The notes under the pieces are model-generated. The model was not told the DNA's origin and did no database searches. It saw nothing but the letters and a program-made list of their open reading frames with translations. The position numbers and the translations under genes were made by a program. A DNA stretch of 64,000 nt from assembly GCF_000412185.1 (NCBI RefSeq), contig NZ_ASJA01000005.1:124001-188000 (forward strand). Direction: 5' to 3'. Shown piece after piece: positions 8,790 to 48,705 of this stretch. Position 1 is the stretch's first letter; each line of letters begins with the position of its first letter. Source of the stretch: Euryhalocaulis caribicus (GTDB lineage Bacteria; Pseudomonadota; Alphaproteobacteria; Caulobacterales; Maricaulaceae).

Positions 8790-8982
8790 GATAACCCCTT
8801 TCCCGCCGCCTTTGCTTTACGGGAGCGAAGGCTACCGCATTGTTCATAAACAGTTGAATTTTAACCGCAACCGGACAGGCCGCGTGTTCCGCCCCAGGCA
8901 CCGGATAGAACGCTTCATTCGCGCTGGTAAATTCAGAAACCATCCTTTCGGGGATAGCTCCCGGCTTGGAGGGGCGCAAGTC

Positions 8983-9004
8983 ATTCACACTCTTGTCAGT
9001 GAAT
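8983..9004. promoter_or_regulatory. Candidate TetR operator, copy B
   Basis: Inverted repeat ATTCAC (8983-8988), ten-base spacer, GTGAAT (8999-9004). The stretch CTCTTGTCAGTGAAT (8990-9004) shares 13 of 15 bases with 8031-8045. It is centred about 75 bp upstream of the TonB receptor start, where a repressor could block the promoter. Confidence 0.5.
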
Positions 9005-9067
9005 ATTATTTTCAGTAGCGTGCCGGGAATAGTCGGCAACAGACCGGCTAATGGGGAGGATAAGGTT

Positions 9068-11341: not shown

Positions 11342-11344
11342 TCG

Positions 11345-15995: not shown

Positions 15996-16001
15996 GCGGC
16001 A

Positions 16002-31842: not shown

Positions 31843-32751
31843 ATGAGTGACCAGTCCGGAGACAACCAGAGCGCATCGGATATGCCCAGCAGCGAGGATC
31901 TGGCCGCGCGGCTGGTCCGGCTGCTGCAGGTCGAGACGCTGGACACCGATCTCTATCGCGGTCCGCGCAATCCCGGCGGGCAGGGCCGCGTGTTTGGCGG
32001 GCAGGTGATCGGCCAGGCGCTGATGGCCGCGACCGGCTCCATCGAGGACGACAAGGTCGCCCATTCCCTGCACGCCTATTTCATGCGGCCCGGGGACGAG
32101 CAGTTGCCCATCATCTACCGCGTGGAGCGCGACCATGACGGCGGCAGCTTCGCCACGCGGCGCATCATCGCCATCCAGAACGGCAAGCCGATCCTGAACA
32201 TGGCGGCGTCGTTCCAGCGGCCGGAGACGGGCCTGTCGCACCAGTTCGACATGCCGGAGGCGCCGGACCCGGACACGCTGCCCACCGAGAGCGAGGTGGT
32301 GTTGCGCCACCGCGACCGGCTGCCCGAGCCCTTTGTCGAATTCATCACGCGCCGCAGGCCGATCGAAGTGCGCCACGCGGATGAATGGACTCTGGCCAGT
32401 CCGCGGAAGGGGGAGCCCCGCCGCCGCCTGTGGTTCCGCGCCGCCGGGCCGCTGGGCGATGATCCGAAAATGCACCGCGCCGTGCTGTCCTACGCCTCGG
32501 ACATGGCGCTGATGGGGGCCTGCATGCAGCCGCACGGGGTGAGCTGGCTGACCGACCGGATGCAGACGGCCAGCCTGGATCACGCCGTCTGGCTGCATGA
32601 CGATTTCCGGGCCGATGAGTGGCTGCTCTACGCGACCGACAGCCCGTGGTCGGGCGGCGGGCGCGGCTTCAATCGCGGCCAGATATTCACCCGTGACGGG
32701 CGGCTGGTCGCCAGCACCGCGCAGGAAGCCCTGATCCGCCTGAAGGACTAG
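31843..32751 (+). CDS. tesB: Acyl-CoA thioesterase II
   Basis: The protein has 302 aa. The double hot-dog fold begins with LLQVETLDTDLYRGPRNPGGQGRVFGGQVIGQAL and includes HSLHAYFMRPGDEQLPIIYRVERDHDGGSFATRRI. The second half has LSYASDMALMGACMQPHG and DHAVWLHDDFRADEWLLYATDSPWSGGGRGFNRGQIF. These are all strongly conserved in TesB. It hydrolyses medium- to long-chain acyl-CoA in the cytoplasm. Convergent with the XRE gene, sharing CTAG at 32748-32751. Confidence 0.93.
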   Translation: MSDQSGDNQSASDMPSSEDLAARLVRLLQVETLDTDLYRGPRNPGGQGRVFGGQVIGQALMAATGSIEDDKVAHSLHAYFMRPGDEQLPIIYRVERDHDGGSFATRRIIAIQNGKPILNMAASFQRPETGLSHQFDMPEAPDPDTLPTESEVVLRHRDRLPEPFVEFITRRRPIEVRHADEWTLASPRKGEPRRRLWFRAAGPLGDDPKMHRAVLSYASDMALMGACMQPHGVSWLTDRMQTASLDHAVWLHDDFRADEWLLYATDSPWSGGGRGFNRGQIFTRDGRLVASTAQEALIRLKD

Positions 32752-33410
32752 TCGGAGACCGGCTCGGCCTTGCGTTCGGCTTCCATCCGGCGGGCCTGCA
32801 GCAGCGTCTCGAGATGGATGTCGCCGCTGCCGCCGCACACGCCCATGATCATCGCTTCCTCGCCCTCGCCGACGATGTAGGCGTGGCCCATATTGGAGTC
32901 GATATAGAAGGACTCCCATTTGCGCAGGATCACCGGATCGTAGAATTCGGTATGAACCTCGACCACGCCTTCCAGCACGAAAATATATTCCTCGCCGGCG
33001 TGGCGGACCAGCTCGCCAAATTCCTCGATCGACTTGGCGCGGACCTTGGTCATGATCGGAATCATGCGCTTCTTACGAAGGTCCGTGCACAGATAATAGT
33101 AATCGTAGTTCGGGGTTTCGACGCGCAGGGCGTCGTCCATCGTGCCCTTGCTCTTGCGGCCCGTGATGGCGCCGTTGGCGGCGCTTTCCGGCGGGGTGCT
33201 GAACAGGTCCGACATGGGAATCGACAGGCGCTGGCTGAGCTGTTGCAGCTTGTCGTAGGTCAGCGTCAGGCGGTCGTGTTCGATCTTGGACAGCGTGGAT
33301 AGCGGGATGCCCGATTGCGCGCTCATCTCCTTGAGCGTCCAGCCGTTGCGCTTGCGTATGTCGCGTACGACCGTGCCCAGCGTGGCGCGCGACTCCCCGT
33401 CTTCACTCAT
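32748..33410 (-). CDS. XRE-family regulator with C-terminal cupin
   Basis: The protein has 220 aa. The helix-turn-helix covers about residues 10-66 (WTLKEMSAQSGIPLSTLSKIEHDRLTLTYDKL). The cupin covers about 120-195, with RHAGEEYIFVLEGVVEVH and a later GHAYIVGEGEE that supply candidate metal or ligand residues. This two-domain type commonly regulates amino-acid or peptide catabolism. It is divergent from the M19-like gene at 33689 with 278 bp between, so it likely controls the downstream D-amino-acid locus. Confidence 0.88.
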   Translation of the reverse strand: MSEDGESRATLGTVVRDIRKRNGWTLKEMSAQSGIPLSTLSKIEHDRLTLTYDKLQQLSQRLSIPMSDLFSTPPESAANGAITGRKSKGTMDDALRVETPNYDYYYLCTDLRKKRMIPIMTKVRAKSIEEFGELVRHAGEEYIFVLEGVVEVHTEFYDPVILRKWESFYIDSNMGHAYIVGEGEEAMIMGVCGGSGDIHLETLLQARRMEAERKAEPVSD

Positions 33411-33619
33411 CCGAACTCTCCACTCGAAACGGCTCGTCTGGCCGGACCCCGATTTCCCGATTGGAAAATCCTGACCCGAACAGGATCAAACCTAATCGCC
33501 CCGGCCGGGCTTTGCAAAAACCCTTTGAAGTCAGGGGGCTGCGCCGGGCGCTTCAGGCCCGCGGGGCGCGACTCAAAACGTCCTGTAACAGCTAAAATTA
33601 TCATATTAGAGAAACTTGG

Positions 33620-33648
33620 TTGACAATTTTCTGATCGGGATCATTCTG
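33620..33648 (+). promoter_or_regulatory. Possible promoter of the M19-receptor-hydrolase locus
   Basis: TTGACA at 33620-33625 is followed after 17 bases by ATTCTG, a weak -10. The inverted repeat AGAAA...TTTCT spans it, with the same half-site as the palindrome at 47078-47095. The M19-like start is at 33689. Confidence 0.35.
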
Positions 33649-33688
33649 TGCGGTTAACGGGAGAGACGAAGGAAAAGAGGGGAAGCCA

Positions 33689-34909
33689 ATGGGCGCGTTT
33701 GCCGCAAAAGGCCGGGGGATCGCATCGCCGTCCCGGCGCGGTCTGCTGAAGGGATTTGGCGCCGCCGCCCTGGTTTCCGCCCCGGGCATGGCCTGGGCGC
33801 AGCAGGCGCTGCTGGCCGATGTTTCCGGTCCGGCCAAGGCCCTGATGGACCGGGCGGTGGTGATCGACATGCTCGGCCCGCTCAGCCTGGATTTCACCTC
33901 TGATGCTTTCCGCGACGCCCTGACCCCGGAAGAGGCCGAGGAATTCAGAACCTCCGGCGTCACCGCCTTTCACAATTCCTATGGCGTGGGCGGACCGGAC
34001 GCGCACCAGAGCGTGCTGCAATACATGGCCGCCTGGAACGGCTTCGTGGCGCGCAATGCCGGCTTGTTCACGCTGGTCGACCGCGCCGAAGACATTCAGG
34101 CCGCCAAGGATTCGGGCAAGATCGCCGTCATCATGGGCGTGCAGAACTCCTCTCATTTCCGCACCGCGGACGATGTCGAGCTGTTCTACGATCTGGGCCA
34201 GCGCGTATCCCAGCTGACCTATAATTCCCAGAACCGGCTGGGCTCCGGCAGCACGGACCGCGTGGATGGCGGGGTCAGCGATTTCGGCGCCTCCATCATC
34301 GCGAAAATGAACGAGATCGGGATGCTGGTCGATGTCTCCCATTGCGGCGACCAGACCACGCTGGACGCGATCGAGATTTCAGAGCGTCCCATCGCCATAA
34401 CCCATTCCAATTGCCGGGCGCTGAACGATCACCCGCGCCTGAAGACCGACGAGGCGATCCGCAAGCTGGCCGCCAAGGGCGGCGTGATGGGCATTACCGG
34501 GGTGCGCAATTTCGTGCGCGGCGAGGAGCCCACGAGCGTCGAGCATATTGTCGACCACATCGACCATGTCGCGCAGCTGACGGGGGTCGAGCATGTGGGC
34601 GTTGGCACGGACACCGATCTCAACGGCTATGACGATATGAGCCCGGAGATGAACAAGATGCTCCGCGCTTCCTACAAGGGGTCCTACGCCTTCCGCGACA
34701 AGCTGGACACGGACGGCTTCGACGATCCCGCGAAATTCTACCACCTGACCGAGGCGCTGCTGCGCCGGGGCTACGGGGACGATGATGTCCTTCTGATCAT
34801 GGGCGGCAACTTCCAGAGGCTGCTCACGGAAATCTGGTCCGATCACGACGCGTATCTGGAAAAGAAAGCCGCGAAAGAAGCCGAAAAGGCCAGCGGCGAC
34901 GGGGAGTAG
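33689..34909 (+). CDS. M19 dipeptidase-like protein with altered metal site
   Basis: The protein has 406 aa with a Tat-type signal (SRRGLLKGFGAAALVSAPGMAWA). The fold is renal-dipeptidase-like: VDVSHCGDQTT has His218, ITHSNCRALNDHPR has His239, and HVGVGTDTDL is also present. Canonical enzymes begin DGHND; here it is VIDMLGPL, and the bridging Glu (EGxH) is replaced by Gln152 in GVQNSSHF. Two of the usual metal-ligand positions are therefore lost while the later histidines remain. M19 enzymes cleave dipeptides, often with a C-terminal D-residue, which suits this locus. SD AGGGGAAG. A single-metal or non-peptidase activity is possible. Confidence 0.8.
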   Translation: MGAFAAKGRGIASPSRRGLLKGFGAAALVSAPGMAWAQQALLADVSGPAKALMDRAVVIDMLGPLSLDFTSDAFRDALTPEEAEEFRTSGVTAFHNSYGVGGPDAHQSVLQYMAAWNGFVARNAGLFTLVDRAEDIQAAKDSGKIAVIMGVQNSSHFRTADDVELFYDLGQRVSQLTYNSQNRLGSGSTDRVDGGVSDFGASIIAKMNEIGMLVDVSHCGDQTTLDAIEISERPIAITHSNCRALNDHPRLKTDEAIRKLAAKGGVMGITGVRNFVRGEEPTSVEHIVDHIDHVAQLTGVEHVGVGTDTDLNGYDDMSPEMNKMLRASYKGSYAFRDKLDTDGFDDPAKFYHLTEALLRRGYGDDDVLLIMGGNFQRLLTEIWSDHDAYLEKKAAKEAEKASGDGE

Positions 34910-34910
34910 C

Positions 34911-34928
34911 GGCGTCGGACGCCTTTTT
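34911..34928 (+). terminator. Short hairpin with T-tract after the M19-like gene
   Basis: GGCGT-CGG-ACGCC then TTTTT. The 5-bp stem is weak; it may be a partial terminator that lowers expression of the following receptor operon. Confidence 0.4.
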
Positions 34929-34955
34929 CTGAAATCTCGATGGGGGAGATTGAAC

Positions 34956-37178
34956 ATGACTATCCGGACTTTGCGTAACAGCCTGTTCTGCGGGGCGGCT
35001 GGCCTGGCCATGGCGGCCGGGGCGGCGATGGCGCAGGAGGCCTCGGCCAGCGAGGACGAACCGCAGGCTTCGCGCGTTCGCGACGTCATCGTCGTCACCG
35101 CGCAGAAGCGCGAGGAAACCATTCAGGACATACCGGCCTCGATCAGCGTGATCGGGGGCGCTCAACTGGAAAATCTGGCGGCCAAGTCGCTGACCGATTA
35201 CGCCGCCTATGCGCCGGGCTTCAATGTCGATGGCGGGGGCAGTCCGGGGCAGGCGTCATTGACGCTGCGGGGCGTCGCGCCAATCGGGCCGGGCTCCACG
35301 GTGGGCACCTATATCGACGACGCGCCGCTGGGCTCCAGCGCCAATTACGCGCGCGCTTCGGCCTTCGCGCTGGACCTCTTCCCTTACGATATCCAGCAGG
35401 TCGAATTGCTGCGCGGGCCGCAGGGCACGCTCTACGGCGCAAGCACGATGGGCGGCCTTCTGAAATACGTCTCCAAGAAACCCAATCTCAGCGAAACCGA
35501 GGTTCGCGCCGGTCTGGAATTCCTGACCATCGAGGACGCCAAGCGCCTGGGCATGGGCGCCCGCGCGCAGGTGAACGCGCCGCTGGTGACCGACAAGCTG
35601 GGCGTTCAGGCCAGCATCTATCACCAGTACACGCCGGGCTATATCGACAATGCGCTCAACGGCAATGACGATGAGAACGAGGTCCGCCAGAGCGGCGGGC
35701 GCTTCGCCCTGCGCTGGGCGCCGAACGCGGACGTGACCGTTGATCTCAACGCCATGATCCAGAGCATCGAGTCCGAAAATAACGCCTATGTCTCTCTGGA
35801 TACGGTGACCCAGGAACCGGTCGGGGGCGAGGGGCTGACGTCTTCCCGCGTGCTGGACCAGCCGTTCGAGAAAGACGTCCAGTTCTTCTCCGGCCGGGTG
35901 GCCTGGGATCTGGGCTGGGCCGATTTTACTTCGGTCAGCAGCTTTTCGCGCACCGAACAGCTACAGACGCAGGACGCCACGCCGATCTTCGGCGTGCTGT
36001 TCCCGCTGCTGACGGGCGGCGCCGTTCCGGCGGGGCAGTCCCTGTTCACCATCCAGCTGGATCTGGACAAGTACACGCAGGAATTCCGTCTGGCCTCATC
36101 CGGCGAAAGCCGGCTGGAATGGCTCGCGGGGGCTTTCTACACCCATGAGGACAGCACCAACCGGCAGCTCGCCGGCGCCTCTGACAATAACGGCGTTCCC
36201 ATTCCGGGCCTGGATCCGCTGGCCACGGTCGCGCTGCCGACGACGTATGAGGAATACGCGGCCTTCGGCAATCTGACCTATAATTTCACGGACCGTCTGG
36301 ATGTCACTGTGGGCGGCCGCGTGGCGCACAATAATCAGGACTACACCCAGATCAGCAGCGGCGCGATCATCGGCGGCGATCAGGTTGTTCCGGGCGAATC
36401 CTCGGAAACCGTTTTCACCTACATGGCGAACGCCAGCTATGACCTGATGGATCAGACCATGATCTATGCCCGGGTCGCCAGCGGCTATCGTCCGGGCGGG
36501 CCCAATGTCGCCCTGCCGGGCGTTCCGCCGACCGTGGATTCCGATACGCTGGTGAACTACGAGGCCGGCGTGAAATCCGAATTCTGGGATGGCCGCGCCC
36601 TGGTCGAGGCCACGGTCTTCTGGATCGACTGGGAAGACATCCAGATCACGTCCAGCTCCGGCGGCATCAGCTTCCTTACCAATGGCGGCATGGCGCGCAG
36701 CCGGGGCGTCGAATTTTCATCGGTGTTCTCGCCGGTCGATGGCCTGCGTCTGGGCGCAAACGCCGCCTATACCGATTCCGAGCTGACAGAGGACGTGCCC
36801 GACCTTCAGGGCGTGGACGGCGACTCGCTTCCGGGCGTGCCGGAATACAACGCCTCGCTTACCGCCGATTACACCTGGCCAGTCATGCAGGACTGGGACG
36901 CCAGCGCGGGCGGCGGCGTGCGTTTTGTCGGCGAGCGGAATACGAATTTCCCGGCCGACTTCCGCAATGTCGTGATCGACAGCTATGGGGCGCTGGACCT
37001 TCACGCCCAGATTGCGAACGACACCTGGACGCTGCGCGCCTACGTCAAGAACGTCACCAACGAAGACGACTTCCTCAATGTCGGCTTTGTCGAGGACGGG
37101 CTGGGCGGACCCGTGGAGCTTCAGGGCTTCGTCCTGCAACCGCGTACAATCGGGGTCAGCCTGGACGCCCGCTTCTAG
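34956..37178 (+). CDS. TonB-dependent outer-membrane receptor of the D-peptide locus
   Basis: The protein has 740 aa from the ATG at 34956 (GGGGGAG upstream); a TTG two codons earlier is less likely. The signal peptide ends in AMAQ. The TonB box is RDVIVVTA; the plug contains LTLRGVAPIGPGSTVGTYIDDAPLG and VELLRGPQGTLYGASTMGG; the barrel ends in LDARF. It is followed 41 bp later by two membrane-anchored serine hydrolases. Context suggests import of peptides with D-residues; no direct ligand evidence. Confidence 0.9.
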   Translation: MTIRTLRNSLFCGAAGLAMAAGAAMAQEASASEDEPQASRVRDVIVVTAQKREETIQDIPASISVIGGAQLENLAAKSLTDYAAYAPGFNVDGGGSPGQASLTLRGVAPIGPGSTVGTYIDDAPLGSSANYARASAFALDLFPYDIQQVELLRGPQGTLYGASTMGGLLKYVSKKPNLSETEVRAGLEFLTIEDAKRLGMGARAQVNAPLVTDKLGVQASIYHQYTPGYIDNALNGNDDENEVRQSGGRFALRWAPNADVTVDLNAMIQSIESENNAYVSLDTVTQEPVGGEGLTSSRVLDQPFEKDVQFFSGRVAWDLGWADFTSVSSFSRTEQLQTQDATPIFGVLFPLLTGGAVPAGQSLFTIQLDLDKYTQEFRLASSGESRLEWLAGAFYTHEDSTNRQLAGASDNNGVPIPGLDPLATVALPTTYEEYAAFGNLTYNFTDRLDVTVGGRVAHNNQDYTQISSGAIIGGDQVVPGESSETVFTYMANASYDLMDQTMIYARVASGYRPGGPNVALPGVPPTVDSDTLVNYEAGVKSEFWDGRALVEATVFWIDWEDIQITSSSGGISFLTNGGMARSRGVEFSSVFSPVDGLRLGANAAYTDSELTEDVPDLQGVDGDSLPGVPEYNASLTADYTWPVMQDWDASAGGGVRFVGERNTNFPADFRNVVIDSYGALDLHAQIANDTWTLRAYVKNVTNEDDFLNVGFVEDGLGGPVELQGFVLQPRTIGVSLDARF

Positions 37179-37219
37179 CGGGCGGCCCTGACGCCGCAAA
37201 TATAAGAGGGGGAGTATTC

Positions 37220-39220
37220 ATGTTTGACCGTATCCGCCGGCGTTTCGCCGTTCCGGCTCTGATCGGCGCGAGTCTTGGCCTTGCCGGTTTTTCGGCCGCT
37301 TGGGCGCAGAGCGAGACCCAGCCGCTGACGCCCGAACCTGCGGCGTCCGAAACGGACATGCCGGAGATCGAGCCGGCAGAAGGCGGTCTGACGCGGGACG
37401 ACGTGGAAGGCTTCCTCGACGGCTTTGTTCCCTATGCGCTGAGCGAGGGGGACATTGCCGGGGCGGTGGTCACCGTGGTCGAGGACGGCGAAATCCTCCT
37501 CAGCAAGGGCTATGGCTATTCCGATCTGGAAACCCGCGCGCCGGTCGATCCGGCCCGCACCCTGTTCCGGCCGGGCTCCATCTCCAAGCTGTTCACCTGG
37601 ACGGCGGTGATGCAGCTGGTCCAGAGCGGCGACGTCAGTCTGGACGAGGACGTCAACGCCTATCTGGATTTTGAAATTCCCGAGCATGAAGGCGGGCCGA
37701 TCACGCTGCGTCATGTCATGACCCATACCGCCGGTTTCGAGGAAACGGCGAAATGGATCCTGCTTGAGGATCTGGAGCAATTCCCCGATCTCGAGACGTA
37801 TCTGAAGGAAAACCTGCCGCCGCGCGTCTTCGATTCCGGGACGATGCCGGCCTATTCCAACTACGCCACCGCGCTGGCCGGCTATATCGTCGCCCAGGTC
37901 TCCGGGGTCTCTTTCGACGACTATCTGGACGCCAATATCTTCGACCCGCTGGGCATGACGCGCTCCACCTTCCGTCAGCCGATTCCGGACGATCTCGATG
38001 CGGAAATGTCGAAAGGCTACATGACGGCCTCCGACGGCGAGCCCCGCGAATTCGAGCTGGTCACACCGGCCCCGGCCGGATCCCTGTCCGCCACGGGCGA
38101 GGATATGGGCCGCTTCATGATCGCGCATCTGCAGGGCGGGGGCGCGCTGCTGGACAGCGCCACGGCCGAACAGATGCACACCACGGCGGACCGTAAATTC
38201 CCGCCGCTGAACGCCATGATGCTGGGCTTCTACGAACAGGACCGCAACGGCTATTCGGTGATCGGGCATGGCGGCGACACGATCGCCTTCCACTCCGATC
38301 TCAGCCTGTTCCTGGATGAGGGCGTGGGCCTGTATATCTCCATGAACAGCGCCGGGGCGGAGGGCGCGTCCGGCAAGATCCGGTCCGCCCTCTATGAAGC
38401 CTTCGCCGACCGGTATTTCCCGGATGAGGATGAACAGGATGCGCCCACGCTGGACACGGCCGCCGAGCACGGCGCCATGGTGGCGGGGCTGTATGAAAGC
38501 TCGCGCGGCTCTTTCCACAATTTTCTGACCTCGCTGTCCCTGGTCGGGCAGCTGAAAGTCAGCATGAACGAGGATAACGAGCTGATCGCCCCGCTGATCA
38601 CCGAAACCAGCGGCGCCCCGACGCGCTGGCGCGAGGTGGAGCCGTTTGTCTGGCAGGCGGTCAATGGTCAGGATCGCCTGACCGCGAAAATGGAGGACGG
38701 CGAGGTGGTCGCCCTGACCATGGAGCCGGTCTCCCCGATCATGGCCCTTTTGCCCGTGCCGTGGTGGAAATCTTCGGGCCTGCTGATGCCGCTTCTGGTC
38801 GTGGCGCTGATCGCGCTGGCGCTGACCGCCCTGCTTTGGCCCGTCCGCGCCATCGTGCGCTGGCGCTACCGTTCGCCGTTCCCGCTGGAGGGACGCACGG
38901 CGGCGGCCTATCGCGCGGTGCGCGCGGTCAGCGGACTGACGCTGGTCTATCTGGGGCTGTGGGCGTTCCTGATCATCTTCCTGATGTCGGATTTCACGCG
39001 CCTGACGGACGCCACGCATCTGCCGCTGCGCCTGTTGCAGTTTGCCATGATCATTCCGCTGGGCGGGCTTGTCCTGTCGCTGTGGAACGCTTTCCAGGTC
39101 TGGACCGGCGCGTCCAGCTGGTTCGGCAAGCTGTGGAGCGTGGTCCTGGTCGTGGCCTTCCTTATCGTCATCTGGTTCGCCAGCGCCGGTAATCTCTTCA
39201 GTTTCACCCTGCAGTTCTAG
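37220..39220 (+). CDS. Class C beta-lactamase-fold serine hydrolase with C-terminal membrane domain
   Basis: The protein has 666 aa with a signal peptide ending in AWAQ. Catalytic motifs of the family are GSISK (Ser120, Lys123), YSN (Tyr212, Asn214) and HGG (His350). After about residue 510 come four transmembrane helices, anchoring the enzyme with its catalytic domain in the periplasm. Such proteins act on D-amino-acid peptides or esters (D-aminopeptidase, DD-peptidase and esterase relatives). It is a paralogue of the next gene, 9 nt downstream. Substrate inferred from the DgcA/DgcN neighbours. Confidence 0.88.
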   Translation: MFDRIRRRFAVPALIGASLGLAGFSAAWAQSETQPLTPEPAASETDMPEIEPAEGGLTRDDVEGFLDGFVPYALSEGDIAGAVVTVVEDGEILLSKGYGYSDLETRAPVDPARTLFRPGSISKLFTWTAVMQLVQSGDVSLDEDVNAYLDFEIPEHEGGPITLRHVMTHTAGFEETAKWILLEDLEQFPDLETYLKENLPPRVFDSGTMPAYSNYATALAGYIVAQVSGVSFDDYLDANIFDPLGMTRSTFRQPIPDDLDAEMSKGYMTASDGEPREFELVTPAPAGSLSATGEDMGRFMIAHLQGGGALLDSATAEQMHTTADRKFPPLNAMMLGFYEQDRNGYSVIGHGGDTIAFHSDLSLFLDEGVGLYISMNSAGAEGASGKIRSALYEAFADRYFPDEDEQDAPTLDTAAEHGAMVAGLYESSRGSFHNFLTSLSLVGQLKVSMNEDNELIAPLITETSGAPTRWREVEPFVWQAVNGQDRLTAKMEDGEVVALTMEPVSPIMALLPVPWWKSSGLLMPLLVVALIALALTALLWPVRAIVRWRYRSPFPLEGRTAAAYRAVRAVSGLTLVYLGLWAFLIIFLMSDFTRLTDATHLPLRLLQFAMIIPLGGLVLSLWNAFQVWTGASSWFGKLWSVVLVVAFLIVIWFASAGNLFSFTLQF

Positions 39221-39229
39221 GAGGCTCGC

Positions 39230-41266
39230 ATGCTCCGCCTTATCAGCCTTGCCTGCCTGGCTGCGGGCCTCGCTCTCCAGCCGGCGCTCGCGCAGACGCC
39301 GGAAACCGAAGCGCCGCAAGACGCGGGGGCGCAGGAAACGGCGCCGGAAACCGGCGCGCCTGCGGAACCGCCGCTGGAAGAGCCGGCCGCCGCGCCATCC
39401 CGCCTTCCCGCCGATCAGCTGGAAGCCTTTGTGGACGGCCTTGTGCGGGACGCGATGGAGGCGGAGCATTATGCCGGCGTGCATGTGGCCGTGGTGGAAG
39501 GCGGCGAGACCCGCCTTCTGAAAGGCTATGGCGCGGCGAGCCTCGAGCCCTATCGGGAGGTCGATCCGCAGCGCAGCCTGTTCCGCATCGGCTCGCTGTC
39601 CAAGACCTTCACCTGGATCGCCCTGATGCAGGCGGTCGAAGACGGGCTGGTCGACCTGGAAGCCCCGGTGAATGACTATCTGCCGGAGGATTTGCAGGTT
39701 CCGGACGAGGGCTATGGGCCGATCCGCGTGATCGACCTGATGAGCCATGCGCCGGGTTTCGAGGACAGCGCGCTGGGTCATCTCTTCGCGGGACGCGAGG
39801 ACGACATCATGTCGCCGGAGGCCTATGAGGCGGCGCACCGCCCGGACCGCGTGCGCGAGCCGGGGCAGTTCTCCACCTATTCCAATTATGGGGTCCTGCT
39901 TGCCGGACGGATCATCGCCGAGGTCTATGGAGCCGATTTCCCGACCGTGATCGACGAGCAAATCTTCGACCCGCTGGGCCTGACCCGCACCACGTTCCGC
40001 GAGCCTTACGCCCCGCGCGACGACCTGCCCGCGCCGATGGACGAGGATATCGCCGGCGATGCGGCGACGGGGTTCGAGTGGAAGGGCGGAGTCTTCCAGC
40101 CGCGCAAATATGAATACGCCACACAGGTCGCCGCCGCCGGCTCGGTTTCCGCCAGCGCCGCGGACATGGCGGCCTATATGAAGCTGTTGCTGAACGATGG
40201 CGAACTGGACGGCGTGCGCATCTATTCGCCGGATACGGCCGAGGCGTTCCGCACCCCGATCATCGACACGCCCGACACGGCCAATGGCTGGGCGCACGGC
40301 TTCATCGTCAGCACCTTTCCCGGCGGCTATGAGGGCTATGGCCATGGCGGCGCGACGATGTGGTTCCGCACCTATCTGGTCGTGGTGCCGGAGCTGGATC
40401 TGGGCGTCTATGTCTCGGTCAACACCAATACGGGCCGCTCGCTCGGCCTGCGCCTGCCCAGCCTGATCATCGAGCGTTTCTATCTGGATGAAGACACGCC
40501 GGCCTGGCGGCCTGGCGATGAGGCGTTTCTCGAGACGGCGGATCTCTATACCGGGCAATATACGCCGACGCGGCGCGCCTATTCGGGCCTCGAGAAATTC
40601 GTGATGCTCATGAACGGCGTGCAGACCGTCAGCGCCAGCAGCGAAGGCTATCTGGTGGTCGGCTCCGGCCCCGGCAGTCACGCCTGGGTTCCCACCGATC
40701 AGCCGGGGCGCTTCCTGTCCGCAAACAGCGCCGAGGTCCTGACTTTCGAGACGGATGAAAGCGGCAAGGCGGTCGCCTTTATCGGCCCGCTCGGCACGCT
40801 GATGTATCAGCGCGCGCCCTTTCTGCTGAAACCCGGGCTGCTGACGGTTTTCTTCGCCCTGACGATGATCGCCGCCGCGGCCACCCTGATCGGCGCGCTG
40901 ACCCGGCTGGGCCGGCCTGTCGCGCCCACGCCCTGCCAGCGCTGGGCCAGCATCGCTTCGCTGGCGACGGCCGGGCTGTGGGTGCTGGCCGCCGTGATGT
41001 TCCTGCTGTGGGCGCAAGGCGCCAGCGACAGCGAGGGCCTGATGTATGACTGGCCGAACGGGCCGTTGCCGCTGGCCTCCACGCTGGCGCTGCTGGCGTC
41101 CATTGGCGCGGTGGTCATGGCCGGTCTGACGGTCTGTGTGTGGAGCGGCCGGTCTGCCGGGGGCTGGAGCCTGTGGCGCAAGCTTCGCTACAGCGTGACG
41201 CCGCCCGTCTATCTGATTTTCGCCATCGTGCTGATCGCCCGCGGCGGTCTGTTCCCCTGGGCCTGA
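39230..41266 (+). CDS. Second class C-type serine hydrolase with C-terminal membrane domain
   Basis: The protein has 678 aa. A signal peptide (ending ALAQ) and a proline/glutamate-rich linker (25-60) precede the catalytic domain with GSLSK (Ser122, Lys125), YSNY (Tyr217, Asn219) and GHGG (His372). The C-terminal region from about residue 530 carries four helices. It shares layout and motifs with the preceding gene, evidently by duplication. The two may trim different peptide ends. It ends 6 nt before the racemase gene, indicating one operon. Confidence 0.88.
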   Translation: MLRLISLACLAAGLALQPALAQTPETEAPQDAGAQETAPETGAPAEPPLEEPAAAPSRLPADQLEAFVDGLVRDAMEAEHYAGVHVAVVEGGETRLLKGYGAASLEPYREVDPQRSLFRIGSLSKTFTWIALMQAVEDGLVDLEAPVNDYLPEDLQVPDEGYGPIRVIDLMSHAPGFEDSALGHLFAGREDDIMSPEAYEAAHRPDRVREPGQFSTYSNYGVLLAGRIIAEVYGADFPTVIDEQIFDPLGLTRTTFREPYAPRDDLPAPMDEDIAGDAATGFEWKGGVFQPRKYEYATQVAAAGSVSASAADMAAYMKLLLNDGELDGVRIYSPDTAEAFRTPIIDTPDTANGWAHGFIVSTFPGGYEGYGHGGATMWFRTYLVVVPELDLGVYVSVNTNTGRSLGLRLPSLIIERFYLDEDTPAWRPGDEAFLETADLYTGQYTPTRRAYSGLEKFVMLMNGVQTVSASSEGYLVVGSGPGSHAWVPTDQPGRFLSANSAEVLTFETDESGKAVAFIGPLGTLMYQRAPFLLKPGLLTVFFALTMIAAAATLIGALTRLGRPVAPTPCQRWASIASLATAGLWVLAAVMFLLWAQGASDSEGLMYDWPNGPLPLASTLALLASIGAVVMAGLTVCVWSGRSAGGWSLWRKLRYSVTPPVYLIFAIVLIARGGLFPWA

Positions 41267-41272
41267 CCGGGA

Positions 41273-42325
41273 ATGGAGAAGAACTTGGCTCACGACACCG
41301 GCGGCGCGCTGGCCATGGAGGTTTCGCTTGAAACCTGGCCGATGAAATCGCCCTTCCGCATTACCGGCTTCACCTTTCACGAGATTCCCCTTGTCGTGGT
41401 GACGCTGCGGCAGGGTGGTTTCACGGCCCGGGGGGAGGCCTGCGGCGTTTTCTATCTGGACGACACGCCCGAGGGGATCGTGTCGCAGCTGGAAGAATTG
41501 CGGCCCGAGATCGAGGCGGGTCTGACGCGCGAAGCATTGCAGGCGCGCGTCCCGGCGGGCGGCGCGCGCAATGCGCTGGACTGCGCGATGTGGGAGCTGG
41601 AAGCGAAAAAATCCGGAACCCCGGTCTGGAAACTGGCCGGTCTGGAGGAGCCAAAACCGCTGCTGACAACCTTCACGCTGGGCGCGGACGAGCCGGACGT
41701 GATGGGCAAACGCGCGGCGGAAATCCCCTATGCCCGCGCCCTGAAGCTGAAACTCACCGGCGACGGCGCCGATGCGGCCCGCGTGAGCGCGGTGCGCAAG
41801 GCGCGCCCGGATGTCTGGCTGGGCGTGGACGGCAATCAGGGCTTTGACCGCGCGTCTCTGGAAAAATTGATCCCGCATATGGTCGAAAATGATGTCGCGC
41901 TGGTCGAGCAGCCCTGCCGGCGGGGTGACGAGGAATCGCTGGCCGGGCTGGATGCGCCCATGCCGCTGGCGGCCGATGAAAGCGCGCTGACGCTGGCCGA
42001 TATCGCGCCGCTGAAATCGCTTTTTGATGTCATCAATATCAAGCTGGACAAGTGCGGCGGCCTGACCGAAGGCCTGGCCATGGCGCGCGAGGCGCGGCGG
42101 CTGGGCCTGGACGTGATGGTTGGCAACATGATGGGCACGTCATGGTCCGCCGCTCCGTCTTTCCTTGTCGGACAGCTTTGCGATGTCGTCGATCTGGACG
42201 GTCCGTGGCTTCTGGCCGCTGACCGCGACCCCGGCGTCGTTTACGAAAACGGGTATGTGGAATGCCCGCCAGGCGTCTGGGGCGGTCCGTCCTCCCAAAC
42301 CCCAACACCAGGGACTGCCCCATGA
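41273..42325 (+). CDS. dgcA: Enolase-superfamily racemase, DgcA-like (N-acetyl-D-glutamate racemase / dipeptide epimerase)
   Basis: The protein has 350 aa (ATG 41273; ATG 41315 possible). The catalytic framework of the Ala-Glu epimerase subgroup is present: Lys158-x-Lys160 in ALKLKL, Asp186 in GVDGNQG, Glu212 in VEQP, Asp235 in ADES, and lysines in IKLDKCGG. Alone it could be an L-Ala-D/L-Glu epimerase. The next gene overlaps by ATGA and encodes a DUF1611 protein, which is the DgcN partner. In the described D-glutamate route DgcN makes N-acetyl-D-Glu and DgcA racemises it to N-acetyl-L-Glu. Assignment rests on this pairing. Confidence 0.82.
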   Translation: MEKNLAHDTGGALAMEVSLETWPMKSPFRITGFTFHEIPLVVVTLRQGGFTARGEACGVFYLDDTPEGIVSQLEELRPEIEAGLTREALQARVPAGGARNALDCAMWELEAKKSGTPVWKLAGLEEPKPLLTTFTLGADEPDVMGKRAAEIPYARALKLKLTGDGADAARVSAVRKARPDVWLGVDGNQGFDRASLEKLIPHMVENDVALVEQPCRRGDEESLAGLDAPMPLAADESALTLADIAPLKSLFDVINIKLDKCGGLTEGLAMAREARRLGLDVMVGNMMGTSWSAAPSFLVGQLCDVVDLDGPWLLAADRDPGVVYENGYVECPPGVWGGPSSQTPTPGTAP

Positions 42326-43344
42326 CGCCGCTTGATTTGCCCCAGCCCTATCTGGTCTTCCTCGGCGATGTGACGGAGGTCGCCTACGCCAAGACGGCGG
42401 CCGGCCTGCGTGACTGGGCGCCGGACCAGTGCGTGGGCGAATATGGTCTGCCCAAGGGCGATTTCACGCTGGGCCTGCCTGTGCTGAGCCCCGCCGAAGC
42501 CTATGAAAAAGGCGCGCGGGCCGTTGTCATCGGGGTCGCCCCGATGGGCGGGGGGCTGAATAATGGCTGGGTCGCGCCGCTGGTCGAGGCGCTGGAGGCC
42601 GGGCTGGACATCATCAGCGGCATGCACGCGCCGCTGGCCGGCGTGCCGGCGCTGAAGGAAACCGCCGAACGGCTGGGCCGCCGCCTGATCGATGTGCGCC
42701 GGCCGCCCGCGGGCCTGCCCATCGCCAACGGCAAAAAGCGCGCCGGGAAACGCCTGCTGACCGTCGGGACCGATTGCGCGCTGGGCAAGAAATACACCGC
42801 GCTCGCCATCGCGGAGGCGTTCCGGAAACGGGGCGTGGCGACCGATTTCCGCGCCACGGGCCAGACCGGCGTGATCATCGCGGGCGGCGGCATACCGATG
42901 GATTCAGTGGTTGCTGATTTCCTGGCCGGGGCGGCCGAAGTGCTCAGCCCGGACGCCGCGCCCGATCACTGGGACATCGTGGAAGGCCAGGGATCGCTGT
43001 TCCATCCGGCCTATGCCGGGGTGTCGCTGGGCCTGCTGCATGGCAGTCAGCCCGATGTTCTGGTTGTCTGTCACCAGATCGGGCGCGACCATGTTCTGGG
43101 CATGGGCGAGACCTATCCGCTGCCTTCTGTCGAGGAGACGATCGAGATCAATCTCTATCACGCACGCCGGGTGAACCGCGAAGCGCGCTGCGCCGGGATA
43201 AGCCTGAACACCGCAAGCCTGGACGATGAAGCGGCGGCGAAAGCCATCGCCGAATATTCGGAGCGCACGGGCCTGCCCTGCGCCGATCCGATCCGGGGCG
43301 GGGCGGCGTTCGCCCGGCTGGTCGATTCCTGCCTTAACCCATGA
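42322..43344 (+). CDS. dgcN: DUF1611 protein, DgcN-like D-glutamate N-acetyltransferase
   Basis: The protein has 340 aa from the ATG at 42322 inside the racemase stop. The N-terminal part (YLVFLGDVTEVAYAKTAAGLRDW) and the C-terminal P-loop-like GTDCALGKKYT (149-159) are typical of DUF1611. QTGVIIAGGGIPMDSVVADFLAGAAE and WDIVEGQGSLFHPAYAGVSLGLLHGSQPD also fit. Characterised marine homologues N-acetylate D-glutamate. It overlaps the next gene by 4 nt. The P-loop suggests nucleotide or CoA binding; this is inference. Confidence 0.85.
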   Translation: MTPLDLPQPYLVFLGDVTEVAYAKTAAGLRDWAPDQCVGEYGLPKGDFTLGLPVLSPAEAYEKGARAVVIGVAPMGGGLNNGWVAPLVEALEAGLDIISGMHAPLAGVPALKETAERLGRRLIDVRRPPAGLPIANGKKRAGKRLLTVGTDCALGKKYTALAIAEAFRKRGVATDFRATGQTGVIIAGGGIPMDSVVADFLAGAAEVLSPDAAPDHWDIVEGQGSLFHPAYAGVSLGLLHGSQPDVLVVCHQIGRDHVLGMGETYPLPSVEETIEINLYHARRVNREARCAGISLNTASLDDEAAAKAIAEYSERTGLPCADPIRGGAAFARLVDSCLNP

Positions 43345-44474
43345 GCAACGCCGCCGGTCCCAGCCTCTTCCAGCGTTTCCTGTTGCCGGGGCTCGCCTTC
43401 AAGGCGGTCGTCATCGGCGGGGGCTACGCCACGGGGCGGGAGCTGGCGGAGTTCTTCTTCCCCGCCGGTCCGGCGGGCGGGCTGCTGGGCCTTCTTCTGG
43501 CGATGGGCGTGTGGAGCCTGGTCTGCGCGGTCACTTTCCTGTTCGCGCGGGCCACCCATTCGGACGACTACCGGGTCTTCTTTCGTCACCTCCTGGGGCC
43601 GTTCTGGCCGGCGTTCGAATTTGCCTATGTCTGTTTCCTGTTCCTGATCCTGTCCGTCTTCGGGGCCGCGGCCGGGGAGATCGGGGCGGCGGTGTTCGGT
43701 CTGCCGCTCTGGGCCGGGTCCGTCTTCCTCGCCGCCGGCATCCTGTTCTTTGCCGCGCTCGGCACGGACACGATCGAGCGATTGTTCAAATACGCCTCGA
43801 TCTTCCTCTATTCGGTCTATGTGATCTTCGTGGCGATGAGCTTCAGCCAGTTCGGCGGCGACATCATCGACACGCTGAACGGCGCAGCGATAAACGGCGC
43901 CTGGTTCTCCGGCGGTCTGACCTATGCGGGATATAATATCGTCGGCGCGGTCATCATCCTGCCGATCCTGCGCCACCTGACCAGCAATCGCGACGCCGTC
44001 ACGGCGGGCCTGCTGGCCGGGCCGCTGGCCATGCTGCCGGCCATACTCTTCTTCCTCTGCATGCTGGCTTTCTACCCGCAGATCGGCGGGGAGGCGCTGC
44101 CCTCCAACTATATCCTGGAGCGGCTGGGCTCCCCGGTTTTCCAGATCGCTTTCCAGTTCATGATCTTCGTGGCCCTGCTGGAAACCAGCGTCAGCGCCGT
44201 GCATGCGGTGAACGAGCGGATCGACGGCGTCACCAGGCGGCCGCTGGGGCATGGCGCGCGGCTGGCCATCGCCGCGGTGATCGTAGTGTTCGCGATGTTC
44301 CTTGCGCAGCGTTTTGGCCTGATCGATCTGATCGCCAAGGGCTACCGGGCGCTCGCCTACATGATCCTGCTGACCTATGTGCTGCCGCTTCTGACGCTGG
44401 GCGTGTGGAAGCTGTGGCGCTGGTCGAAGCGTGGGAAAGCCGCAAGCCCGGTGCAAGATTCCGCAAACTCCTGA
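43341..44474 (+). CDS. YkvI-type membrane protein, probable amino-acid transporter
   Basis: The protein has 377 aa and ten or eleven hydrophobic segments. The first, FKAVVIGGGYATGRELAEFFF, has a glycine-rich break like the unwound helix 1 of APC/LeuT-fold transporters, and MIFVALLETSVSAVHAVNERID is a later conserved stretch. It resembles the poorly characterised YkvI family. Its position in the same overlapping operon as DgcA/DgcN suggests uptake of D-glutamate or a small peptide product across the inner membrane. Confidence 0.75.
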   Translation: MSNAAGPSLFQRFLLPGLAFKAVVIGGGYATGRELAEFFFPAGPAGGLLGLLLAMGVWSLVCAVTFLFARATHSDDYRVFFRHLLGPFWPAFEFAYVCFLFLILSVFGAAAGEIGAAVFGLPLWAGSVFLAAGILFFAALGTDTIERLFKYASIFLYSVYVIFVAMSFSQFGGDIIDTLNGAAINGAWFSGGLTYAGYNIVGAVIILPILRHLTSNRDAVTAGLLAGPLAMLPAILFFLCMLAFYPQIGGEALPSNYILERLGSPVFQIAFQFMIFVALLETSVSAVHAVNERIDGVTRRPLGHGARLAIAAVIVVFAMFLAQRFGLIDLIAKGYRALAYMILLTYVLPLLTLGVWKLWRWSKRGKAASPVQDSANS

Positions 44475-44492
44475 AAAAGAAGGGGAGCCGTC

Positions 44493-45500
44493 ATGGCCGC
44501 CAGAAACCTGTTATACGCCGCGCTGATCGCCGCTGCGCTCGGCGCGGGCGCGCCCGCCCATGAGGCCATGGCGGCTCAGGCCCCGGCGGCGGAGGCGCGG
44601 GACCGGAGCCTGGAGCATCATCTGGCGCGTATCGCCGGGAATCTGGACGGCGTCGTCGGCGTCTCCATCCGCGATCTCTCCAGCGGCGCGGCGTTCGGGC
44701 TGAACGCCGATGAGGCGTTCCCGATGGCCAGCACGTTCAAGATCGCGGTGGCCGGGGCCATTCTGGAGCAGGTGGACTCAGGCGAGCTGACGCTGGAACA
44801 GATGGTCACGGTCGACCCGGACATGCATGTGCCGTCGGAAATCATCGCCGACCGCTTCATCCATCCGGGCGTTTCCCTGTCTGTCGCGAACCTGATGGAG
44901 CTGATGCTGACCCAGAGCGACAATACCGCCACGGATGTTCTGACCGAACTGGCGGGCGGGCCGGCGGCGGTGACCGGCTGGCTGGCGTCCATTGGCGTCG
45001 AAGGCCAGCGCGTGGACCGGGACACCGCCGGCTTGCTGCGCGATTTCTTCCAGTTGCCGGAGGGGCCGCTGGCCCAGACGGCCGCCGCCGCCCTGGCCGA
45101 GGATCCGGGCTTTTTCGATGACGGCCTGACGCCGCGCGAAGCCTTCTATAACGACCCGAAGGACACCTCCACGCCGGACGCGATGGCCGACCTGCTGACC
45201 CGGATCGTGCAGGGCGAGGCGCTGGGCGCGGACAGCACGGAATTTCTTGTCGGGGTGATGGAGCGGTGCCGCACTGGCGAGGGGCGGCTGAAAGGCCTGC
45301 TGCCGGAAGGCGTTACGGTGGCGCACAAGACCGGAACGGTCGGCGGCACGGTGAACGATGTCGGCGTCATGACCCTGCCCGGCGGGCGTCAGGTGGTGAT
45401 CGCGGTCTTCGTCAAGGCCAGCCCGGCCCCGGCGGAAGCGCGGGAGCGGACGATCGCCGAGATCGCCCGCACCGCCTACGACTATTTCCTGTTCAACTAG
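44493..45500 (+). CDS. Class A beta-lactamase-fold serine hydrolase
   Basis: The protein has 335 aa with a signal peptide (about 1-28) and an AGGGGAG ribosome site. STFK (Ser80, Lys83), SDN (142-144) and KTG (279-281) are all present. The omega-loop segment reads DRDTAGLLRDF, where class A beta-lactamases have DRWEPELN, so both deacylating Glu166 and Asn170 appear missing. It is therefore unlikely to be an efficient beta-lactamase and more likely a periplasmic D-peptidase or amidase, or a penicillin-sensitive hydrolase. It follows YkvI by 18 nt and shares its stop (CTAG) with the deacylase gene. Confidence 0.85.
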   Translation: MAARNLLYAALIAAALGAGAPAHEAMAAQAPAAEARDRSLEHHLARIAGNLDGVVGVSIRDLSSGAAFGLNADEAFPMASTFKIAVAGAILEQVDSGELTLEQMVTVDPDMHVPSEIIADRFIHPGVSLSVANLMELMLTQSDNTATDVLTELAGGPAAVTGWLASIGVEGQRVDRDTAGLLRDFFQLPEGPLAQTAAAALAEDPGFFDDGLTPREAFYNDPKDTSTPDAMADLLTRIVQGEALGADSTEFLVGVMERCRTGEGRLKGLLPEGVTVAHKTGTVGGTVNDVGVMTLPGGRQVVIAVFVKASPAPAEARERTIAEIARTAYDYFLFN

Positions 45501-47053
45501 TCCTGACTGGCGACCGTGCCGCGGATTGCGACGCCGGGCAGGACGGCGGTGTTCATTTCGCCGCCATCCACGACCGGCACACCGCCGACCAGCACATAGT
45601 CATAGCCCACAGAGGCCTGCGCCGGCTTGGCGAAGGTCGCCTTGTCGGCCACCGTTTCCGGATCGAAGACCACGATATCGGCGTCCGCGCCCGGCTGAAT
45701 ACGGCCGCGCGTGCGCATTTGCGGGACCGATGTCTCCAGGATTTTCGCCGGATAATAGCTGGTCTTGGCAATGGCTTCCGGCCAGTCGATCACGCCGCGC
45801 TCGCGCACATAGATGCGCAGGAAGCGGCTGAACGTGCCGGCGCTGCGCGGATGCGATTGCGCCTCTTCCGGGATCGGCCACGTCTGGCCCGTAACCATGC
45901 CGTCTTCGGTTTCCCAGTCGCCGCCGTCGGAGGCGATGGCCCCGCCCGGATACAGGATCGAGCGGTCCAGATAGCCCTGATCGGCCTCGTTCTCGTCCGG
46001 ATTCAGGAAATGGACGATGATGCCCGTGCCCGGCGCATTGGCCTGCAGATCATCAAAGCGCGCCTTGTCCAGCGGCTCGCCGTTCACGGTGAAGGCGGAA
46101 TAGTCGATGCCGCCCATGCGGTCCCGCCAGCCTTCGCCGCGGAACATCGCCGCGCCGATGCCGGTCGCGCCCGCGCCATAGGGATAGGCTTCGACCGTAA
46201 TGTTGACGCCATTGTCCTGCGCGCCGGAGATCATGTCGGCGATGGCGTTGATATCGGTCAGGCTGATGGAGTTGAGGTGGCTGATATGCATGTGCGCGCC
46301 GGTCGCGGCGGCCACGGCCACCATTTCCTCATACCCCTCGAAGGAGCTGTCGGGCTCGGTCGTGCTGAGGAAGCGGGCATGGGTCCAGGTGGGGACGCCG
46401 CGCTCGGCGGCCAGTTCGTTGACCGCATAATATTCCTTGCGGCCCGATCCCGGCGCATAGCCAACCAGTATGCCGACGCCCAGACCGCCCTGGTCCAGAC
46501 CCTCGCTCACCCGGCCCAGAATTTCTTCCAGCTCTTCGTCCGTGGCGACATCTTCCTGCCAGTCCGGATCCTTGAAGTGGGAGAAGAACCAGTCGACGTC
46601 GGCGGAAGGTTCGTCCTCCTCGATCGTGGCGATGCGGGCGTGCGCCCAGCTGACGGCGCTGCCATAATTGATTGGCCGGCCTTCGGCGCCCGCGCTGTCA
46701 TAGAAATCATTGATCGGCAGGATGCCGGCTTCCAGCTCCAGCGTCGTGGTCACGCCGTCCAGCGCCTGCATGCGTCCGGCCGGGATGGACTGGCCGTGGC
46801 CGTGTAGGTCGATAAAACCCGGGGCGACAATGCGGCCCGTGGCGTCGATCACCCGTTCGCCGTCCAGCGCGCCTTCGGAAATCTCGGCCACCTTGCCGTC
46901 GCTGATGCCGATGCTGCGAACCCCGTCCGTGCCGCTGGCCGGATCGATCAGGCGGCCATTCTCGATCACCAGATCGTATGACGCGTCCTGCGCCATGGCG
47001 GCGCCGCCCAGAAGGGCGCTGGCCGCCGCGGCCAGAGCGAATGTTCGTTTCAT
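45497..47053 (-). CDS. N-acyl-D-amino-acid deacylase (D-aminoacylase), exported
   Basis: The protein has 518 aa from the ATG at 47053, giving a signal peptide ending in AMAQ; a longer frame from 47119 lacks support. The amidohydrolase fold shows YDLVIENGRLIDPASG, the metal motif APGFIDLHGHGQ (His-x-His), HISHLNS, YPYGAGATG and a C-terminal RGRIQPGADADIVVFDPETV. These features match the D-aminoacylase group that hydrolyses N-acyl-D-amino acids such as N-acetyl-D-Glu. It lies next to DgcN/DgcA and can act on the same chemical class, though in the periplasm. An 18-bp palindrome lies 25 bp upstream. Confidence 0.87.
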   Translation of the reverse strand: MKRTFALAAAASALLGGAAMAQDASYDLVIENGRLIDPASGTDGVRSIGISDGKVAEISEGALDGERVIDATGRIVAPGFIDLHGHGQSIPAGRMQALDGVTTTLELEAGILPINDFYDSAGAEGRPINYGSAVSWAHARIATIEEDEPSADVDWFFSHFKDPDWQEDVATDEELEEILGRVSEGLDQGGLGVGILVGYAPGSGRKEYYAVNELAAERGVPTWTHARFLSTTEPDSSFEGYEEMVAVAAATGAHMHISHLNSISLTDINAIADMISGAQDNGVNITVEAYPYGAGATGIGAAMFRGEGWRDRMGGIDYSAFTVNGEPLDKARFDDLQANAPGTGIIVHFLNPDENEADQGYLDRSILYPGGAIASDGGDWETEDGMVTGQTWPIPEEAQSHPRSAGTFSRFLRIYVRERGVIDWPEAIAKTSYYPAKILETSVPQMRTRGRIQPGADADIVVFDPETVADKATFAKPAQASVGYDYVLVGGVPVVDGGEMNTAVLPGVAIRGTVASQD

Positions 47054-47095: not shown

Positions 47096-47244
47096 ATCGT
47101 GCCTGAAGGGTCGCGGCAATGTCGGGGCTTGCGATTTTTTGCGCTGGCGAGAACATGGGCGTTCGCGTTTCCATGCTTGAATCCGCCGCTCACAAAAGTA
47201 TGGTTATGCAAGTAAAGTTTCGCGCCCGGCGCAAGGATCCTCCT

Positions 47245-48705
47245 ATGACCAACATACTCAGCCAGACCGACATCAATATCGATTCCGAAGGCAATCCGTT
47301 GCTGGAGGGCGGCTACGCGCCGGTCGAACGGGAAATCGAGGCGGGCGACCTGAAGACCACGGGCGACATGCCGGCGGACATTGCCGGGACCTATGTGCGC
47401 AACGGGCCGAACCCGCGCTTCCAGCCGCGCGGCCGCTATCACCTGTTCGACGGCGACGGCATGCTGCACAGCGCCACGCTGGCCGATGGCAAGGTGACCT
47501 ACCGCAATCGCTGGATCCGCACCGAAGGGTTTGAGGCGGAGCGCCGCGAGGGCAAGTCGATCTGGCCGGGCCTGATGGAAATGCCGGACCGCGATTTGCC
47601 AAGGGGCTGGGGTTCGCACCACTGGCTGAAGGATGCGGCCAATACCGACATCGTCCCGCATAACGGCCGCCTGCTGACCACCTATTACCAGTGCGGCGTG
47701 CCCTACATCATCGACGCCGCCACGCTGGAAACCGAAGGCCCGATGGACGTGGAGGGTCTGAAAATCCGCCAGGTCTCGGCGCATTCGCGCACCGATCTTT
47801 CGACCGGCGAATTCATGTTCTTCGATTACAATGTCACCGCGCCCTACATGACCTATGGCGTGCTGGACGCGGACGGGAAGCTGGCGCATTTCACCGATAT
47901 CGAATTGCCCGGGCCGCGCCTGCCGCACGACATGGCGATCACGCCGACATATTCGGTGCTGATGGATCTGCCGCTGTTCTGGAACGAGAGCCTGCTGGAG
48001 CGCGACATCCACAAGGTCGAGTTCCACGAGGACATGCCGTCCCGCTTCGCCATCCTGCCGCGCCATGGCGGGAATGCCGACATCAAATGGTTCGAGGCGG
48101 ACCCGGCCTATATCTATCACGTCATCAATTGCTGGGAGGAGGGCGACGAGGTGGTCCTCGACGTCTGCCGCATGCGCACCCCGGCGCCGGACGAAAGCAA
48201 GATCCGCGGCGGGCCTTACGCCGCGCTGGTCGCCTGGGCGAACATGGACGCCCAGCATTACCGCTATCGCTTCAACATGAAGACGGGCGAGACGCGCGAG
48301 CACGCGGTGGACGACCAGTTCATCGAGTTCCCGACGATCAACCAGACGTATCAGGGCCAAAAGACGCGCCATTCCTGGCACGGCTATATCCCGCAGGGCG
48401 AAACGCTGCGCCTTGGCGGCCTGGTGCATTTCGACGCCGAGACCAACAAGCGCGACGGATATCACTATGGCGCGGGCGTCTATGGCTCGGAGCCGGTGTT
48501 CGCGCCGCGCATCGGCGCGAAGCACGAAACGGACGGCTATGTGATGAATTTCGTCTCCGACCATAATGAGGGCGGCAGGACGGAGCTTCACATCTTCGAT
48601 CCCGAGAATGTTTCGGACGGCCCGATCGCCCGCGCGGAAATCCCGCAACGAATCCCGGTCGGCTTCCATGCCTGCTGGATGGACGCCAGCGGGGCGGCGG
48701 CATGA
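47245..48705 (+). CDS. Carotenoid-oxygenase-family dioxygenase 1
   Basis: The protein has 486 aa from the ATG at 47245 (AAGGA upstream); longer frames add unrelated residues. The seven-bladed propeller family is identified by YVRNGPNPRF, FDGDGMLHS and the four iron histidines: His180 (VSAH), His228 (LPHDM), His292 (YHVINCWEEGDE) and His475 (VGFHACW). Enzymes of this family cleave alkene double bonds of carotenoids or stilbenes with O2. At the segment that in lignostilbene enzymes carries the substrate-binding Lys, this protein has TTYYQCG (145-151). It overlaps the SDR gene by ATGA. Related to the protein at 56357-57862. Confidence 0.9.
   Translation: MTNILSQTDINIDSEGNPLLEGGYAPVEREIEAGDLKTTGDMPADIAGTYVRNGPNPRFQPRGRYHLFDGDGMLHSATLADGKVTYRNRWIRTEGFEAERREGKSIWPGLMEMPDRDLPRGWGSHHWLKDAANTDIVPHNGRLLTTYYQCGVPYIIDAATLETEGPMDVEGLKIRQVSAHSRTDLSTGEFMFFDYNVTAPYMTYGVLDADGKLAHFTDIELPGPRLPHDMAITPTYSVLMDLPLFWNESLLERDIHKVEFHEDMPSRFAILPRHGGNADIKWFEADPAYIYHVINCWEEGDEVVLDVCRMRTPAPDESKIRGGPYAALVAWANMDAQHYRYRFNMKTGETREHAVDDQFIEFPTINQTYQGQKTRHSWHGYIPQGETLRLGGLVHFDAETNKRDGYHYGAGVYGSEPVFAPRIGAKHETDGYVMNFVSDHNEGGRTELHIFDPENVSDGPIARAEIPQRIPVGFHACWMDASGAAA

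Follow-up and report, generated by a model that had tools for sequence, protein, structure and literature searches.

The window analysed here, a stretch of 64,000 nucleotides (C5:124001–188000; G+C 64.6%) that forms part of the 3.3 Mb genome of Euryhalocaulis caribicus, contains what is best explained as an XRE-cupin-controlled operon for the use of peptides that contain D-amino acids, in which a DgcN-like and a DgcA-like enzyme would acetylate and racemise a neutral or hydrophobic D-amino acid. We give this explanation as a whole a probability of about 0.55, and its parts differ in strength. Peptide scavenging is well supported, since a core of genes recurs in about 80 loci, most of which share a promoter-operator. 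The charged residue expected for D-glutamate is lost in both enzymes, and from this we infer that the real substrate of the pair is probably another, uncharged D-amino acid, neutral and probably hydrophobic.

Within environmental organic matter, D-amino acids are a large pool that is poorly understood, and a conserved operon defined by its operator in many environmental bacteria would open D-peptide turnover to genetic study in a concrete way. DgcN and DgcA are known from the D-glutamate catabolic pathway of Pseudoalteromonas, Rhodobacterales and haloarchaea. The window has the same two enzyme families, encoded by adjacent genes and probably with the same acetylate-then-racemise chemistry, but its pair scores below the curated cut-offs, has lost the basic residues and is joined to a receptor, peptide hydrolases, a transporter and an XRE-cupin regulon. 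The literature searched (open-licence papers), in which DgcN is mentioned together with D-glutamate, gave no account of this locus.

Gene content of the operon

ORF calling and family searches placed eight genes in a tight operon at 33689–45500, all on the + strand; by their coordinates, neighbouring genes are 6 to 41 bases apart or overlap by 4 bases. The operon is flanked at one end by a divergent gene for an XRE-family regulator with a C-terminal cupin domain (32748–33410, − strand; Pfam HTH_3 and Cupin_2), and at the other by a convergent gene for an exported amidohydrolase related to N-acyl-D-amino-acid deacylases (45497–47053, − strand; NF006560 (PRK09061), 684 bits). Every gene that an earlier note on this DNA had named was recovered at its place. 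That note had also treated them as a single locus, which holds for their proximity, although the amidohydrolase gene lies on the opposite strand and outside the + strand operon. The grouping goes beyond chance, as the gene set is found again in about 80 loci and these 13 kb contain three of the 12 PF00144 matches in the genome. Among PDB entries, the amidohydrolase is most closely related to the N-acyl-D-glutamate deacylase 3gip, yet it belongs to a different subfamily (PRK09061), and it is found in the same place in same-family loci (L110–L114).

The first gene of the operon encodes an exported M19-like protein (33689–34909, +). Its M19 label is borne out by the PF01244 match (261 bits) but not by the binuclear metal site, where every one of the 28 aligned orthologues has DML for HxD and Gln for the bridging Glu. 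Having lost three metal-ligand positions, it should not be taken for a typical dipeptidase and its activity is uncertain; a second M19 type, present in some loci, retains HxD and the bridging Glu. A TonB-dependent receptor follows (34950–37178, +; Pfam plug and barrel; alternative start ATG at 34956), relatives of which occur in most loci. Next are two S12 hydrolases of the class C fold (37220–39220 and 39230–41266, both +), which are 32% identical to each other. Both match PF00144, keep the SxSK (SISK in copy 1, SLSK in copy 2), YSN and HGG motifs, and end in about four C-terminal membrane helices, seen in copy 1 as four hydrophobic segments. The DgcA-like racemase/epimerase of the enolase superfamily (41273–42325, +) and the DgcN-like N-acetyltransferase (DUF1611; 42322–43344, +, with 42322 as its most likely start) are considered below.

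The YkvI-type protein (43341–44474, +) matched no Pfam or NCBIfam model. Its AlphaFold2 model (pLDDT 89.4) has as its best PDB match a bacterial Asc transporter (6f2g; E 9.7e-7, TM 0.71), and the protein is predicted to be an amino-acid transporter of the APC/LeuT type; the literature searched yielded nothing on the substrate of YkvI. The last gene encodes an exported hydrolase of the class A beta-lactamase fold (44493–45500, +; NF033103, 245.5 bits against a cut-off of 200). The class A label stands as far as the fold and the SxxK (STFK), SDN and KTG motifs are concerned, but the Glu166 needed for deacylation is missing, its place (DRDTA) being taken by Thr in 8 of 8 sequences aligned, so the protein should not be assumed to be a typical beta-lactamase. 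Beta-lactam resistance was considered as its function and ruled out by the missing Glu166 and the metabolic setting of the operon. Among its closest structure matches is LRA-5, which likewise has the class A fold and motifs but no Glu166; it differs in having Val166 where the window protein has Thr and an extended Omega-loop region. The beta-lactamase activity of LRA-5, a natural protein without Glu166, has been described as biologically insignificant (PMC12777564). The class A-fold and S12 genes of such loci are readily mis-annotated as beta-lactamases.

Recurrence of the gene set and its promoter-operator

Genome contigs were scanned with the DgcN protein, which gave 78 loci, and 20 further regions were taken from relatives, before gene calling and clustering. 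Since the loci were collected by similarity to the DgcN of this window, and related genomes share gene order and ancestry, the counts that follow do not represent independent events. The same core surrounds DgcN in about 80 loci from more than 30 genera of Sphingomonadales, Lysobacterales, Steroidobacterales, Caulobacterales and relatives, and its repeated members are DgcN, S12 with C-terminal membrane helices, the XRE-cupin regulator, DgcA, YkvI and the TonB receptor. Besides DgcN, 74 of the 80 locus-type loci have the membrane S12 protein, 70 YkvI, 63 the XRE-cupin regulator and 60 the receptor, while the S12 protein, YkvI and the regulator are all absent from five loci with a canonical DgcA. 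The outer flanks vary between taxa, and the gene set thus has sharp limits. Conservation of the gene set had been put forward earlier as a check, and the receptor, the penicillin-fold hydrolases, a D-amidohydrolase, DgcA/DgcN, the transporter and the XRE-cupin regulator all recur across the approximately 80 loci; the coupling of DgcA/DgcN to TonB uptake and hydrolases is likewise conserved, with a shared promoter-operator.

Other recurrent members are a second S12 type (with DUF3471), D-aminoacylase-like amidohydrolases, M19 proteins and POT peptide transporters, the last in 17 loci. Some loci also have an ELFV dehydrogenase of the Trp/Leu type and an Lrp-type regulator, an association that may reflect only two independent events. 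In two loci from Aquisalinus (L072 and L115), an ELFV amino-acid dehydrogenase gene lies inside the operon and adjoins the amidohydrolase gene. The same locus was also seen in an assembly of Chthoniobacterales (Verrucomicrobiota; L052), which suggests either transfer between phyla or mis-binning.

In many loci the regulator has orthologues that are 57–65% identical and in the same divergent position. Most loci also share a promoter-like upstream element, TTGACAATTyTCyrATCAGGATCATTATTG, which was found at 95 sites in 1.98 Mb of loci and at none in shuffles of 40 loci; the sites lie mostly just upstream of genes for S12, M19, the receptor or DgcN, and some loci have a second copy before M19 or the receptor. 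In the window it is represented by TTGACAATTTTCTGATCGGGATCATTCTGT (33620–33649, +), which precedes the M19 gene and the operon as a whole and is the sole such site in this genome at up to 3 mismatches. The element covers a consensus −35 hexamer together with an operator-like core, TCCAATCAGGA, a combination which suggests that the XRE-cupin protein represses the operon through this candidate operator. A weak candidate for a second operator, TTTCCCGATTGGAAA, lies upstream of the regulator gene (33453–33467, no strand assigned) and is an exact palindrome match, with approximately 2.6 chance matches expected in one window when up to 2 mismatches are allowed.

Candidate specificity residues of the DgcA-like and DgcN-like enzymes

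The DgcA-like protein scores 363.8 bits against NF042940 (curated cut-off 400), and the DgcN-like protein, in which both the N- and C-terminal DUF1611 domains (PF17396 and PF07755) were found, scores 440.9 bits against NF041892 (curated cut-off 480). Alignment to 1jpd and 4gfi shows that the DgcA-like protein keeps the catalytic and metal residues, namely the KxK motif, the D/E/D triad and the distal Lys (LKLKL, VDGNQ, VEQP, ADES and NIKLDK). The position that aligns with Arg24 of the E. coli L-Ala-D/L-Glu epimerase (AEE) is occupied by Phe35, and no basic residue is present there. In work by Klenchin from 2004, Arg24 of AEE is said to bind the Glu side chain, and from studies of the E. coli and B. 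subtilis enzymes we take position 35 of DgcA to be the contact for the side-chain carboxylate.

The comparison was checked independently with 30 canonical DgcA proteins above the NF042940 cut-off. All 30 have Arg or Lys at position 35, and DgcN adjoins DgcA in 29 of their loci. The locus-type DgcA proteins form one branch in which position 35 is always hydrophobic. A comparable difference is seen in DgcN at residue 259, which is Leu in the window. Of 47 canonical partners 42 carry Arg there, as against none of 80 locus-type proteins; an initial strict comparison of the DgcN groups had given only three conservative differences, and the Arg259 difference emerged after the 29 canonical partners were added. 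When 124 DgcA/DgcN pairs were matched one to one, a basic DgcA residue occurred with DgcN Arg (39 pairs) or Asn (3), and a hydrophobic one with a hydrophobic DgcN residue (74) or another (6) but never with Arg; no mixed basic/hydrophobic pair was present among the 124. On the tree this co-change amounts to no more than one to three independent contrasts, and a paired change of the two positions is thus suggestive.

A second DgcA-family gene of the same genome (C1:252315–253310; L167) scores 404.9 bits, has Lys at the specificity position and has no DgcN adjoining it. Further DgcN/DgcA lineages (L007, L009, L011, L012, L020 and L025) carry the residue pairs Leu/Gly, Tyr/Asp, Gln/Ser and Ser/Asp, and judging from these residues they may have additional specificities, perhaps for basic D-amino acids.

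Proposed route and rival explanations

According to the proposed route, peptides would be imported into the periplasm by the TonB receptor, D-amino acids or short D-peptides would be freed there by the S12 hydrolases anchored in the membrane, together with the class A-fold enzyme and the exported amidohydrolase, and the product would be moved inward by the YkvI-type transporter. In the cytoplasm, N-acetylation of the D-amino acid would fall to the DgcN-like enzyme, after which the DgcA-like enzyme would racemise the product from the N-acetyl-D to the N-acetyl-L form, to be opened by a general deacetylase. We infer this direction of flow and the reaction of each enzyme, as well as repression by the regulator and the neutral or hydrophobic nature of the amino acid. 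No deacetylase gene lies within the locus; ArgE was considered as a partner, and the genome has five M20 genes, of which three were classified (as DapE, a CpsA/amidohydrolase type and a dipeptidase type). The logic of acylation, racemisation and deacylation, carried out with an enolase-superfamily racemase, resembles the route from D- to L-amino acids through N-succinyl/N-acyl-amino acid racemase (NSAR), an enzyme that accepts neutral amino acids such as methionine (PMC8142540), but the window locus has another racemase subfamily, a DUF1611 acetyltransferase and, within the locus, no NSAR-type deacylase.

The earlier note had instead proposed that the locus scavenges D-Glu or D-Ala peptides, for example muropeptides, with DgcN/DgcA converting D-Glu as in the published pathway. 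DgcA and DgcN are indeed the closest named families, the amidohydrolase has an N-acyl-D-glutamate deacylase as its nearest PDB relative, penicillin-fold hydrolases are typically active near D-Ala, and D-Ala would be compatible with the residue changes in both enzymes. However, both enzymes fall under their cut-offs and each has lost its basic residue, and a canonical DgcA-family gene is present at another place in the genome. Nor was any muropeptide-specific enzyme recognised (NlpC/P60, MpaA, LdcA or AmpG) among the window genes and conserved neighbour clusters annotated. D-Glu or muropeptides are thus less likely as substrate than a neutral D-amino acid, and we regard the explanation as a whole as unlikely. 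The DgcA-like protein might also be a dipeptide epimerase that acts on imported L-Xaa-D-Xaa dipeptides and not on N-acetyl-amino acids, as it belongs to the L-Ala-D/L-Glu epimerase superfamily and shares its fold, catalytic lysines and DLDGP motif with the YcjG/YkfB enzymes of muropeptide recycling. POT peptide transporters in 17 loci would fit such a role, as would a Thermotoga relative that acts on L-Ala-D/L-Phe (PMC5808125). The window protein differs from YcjG/YkfB in having Phe for Arg24 and annotated neighbours among which no muropeptide peptidase was recognised, and epimerisation of dipeptides would leave the acetyltransferase unexplained despite its near-constant pairing with DgcA, which makes this account improbable.

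Degradation of non-ribosomal peptide or lipopeptide antibiotics, for detoxification and nutrition, with the membrane S12 proteins as D-stereospecific peptidases, is in our estimation the least probable of the explanations weighed. An S12 domain in the periplasm followed by membrane helices is the layout described for ClbP, a D-amino peptidase (PMC9889268), cleavage of such antibiotics is known for D-stereospecific peptidases (PMC9541196), and the taxa with the locus include Lysobacter, Luteimonas and Stenotrophomonas. The likeness to ClbP is one of layout, though, and ClbP has three membrane helices where the window S12 proteins have four predicted ones; genes for export, immunity and biosynthesis are absent, there is no biosynthetic cluster, and the conserved core is metabolic. 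Microcystin degradation was considered because several matches come from Sphingopyxis or Sphingosinicella, and was set aside: the locus occurs in many other genera, and the USTB-05 genome paper has nothing on dgcN.

Returning to the acetylation and racemisation of a neutral or hydrophobic D-amino acid, we tentatively propose, with less confidence than we place in that reading itself, that DgcN/DgcA is a module of several specificities, which would here be retuned to neutral D-amino acids and form part of a widespread, self-contained regulon for D-peptide use that has a receptor, periplasmic hydrolases, a transporter and an operator of its own. If this is true, current DgcN/DgcA annotation over-assigns D-glutamate, and metagenome surveys that equate dgcN with D-Glu catabolism may count another substrate.

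Two further groups of genes in the window were named from reading of the sequence. Directly adjoining the locus, at 47119–50989, are a carotenoid-cleavage-oxygenase-like gene, a short-chain dehydrogenase and an MFS transporter, which are not conserved with it. At 8094–16736, TonB-receptor-like, MFS, carboxylesterase-like and AMP-ligase-like genes lie between two similar TetR-like regulators, and this region looks like another catabolic cluster.
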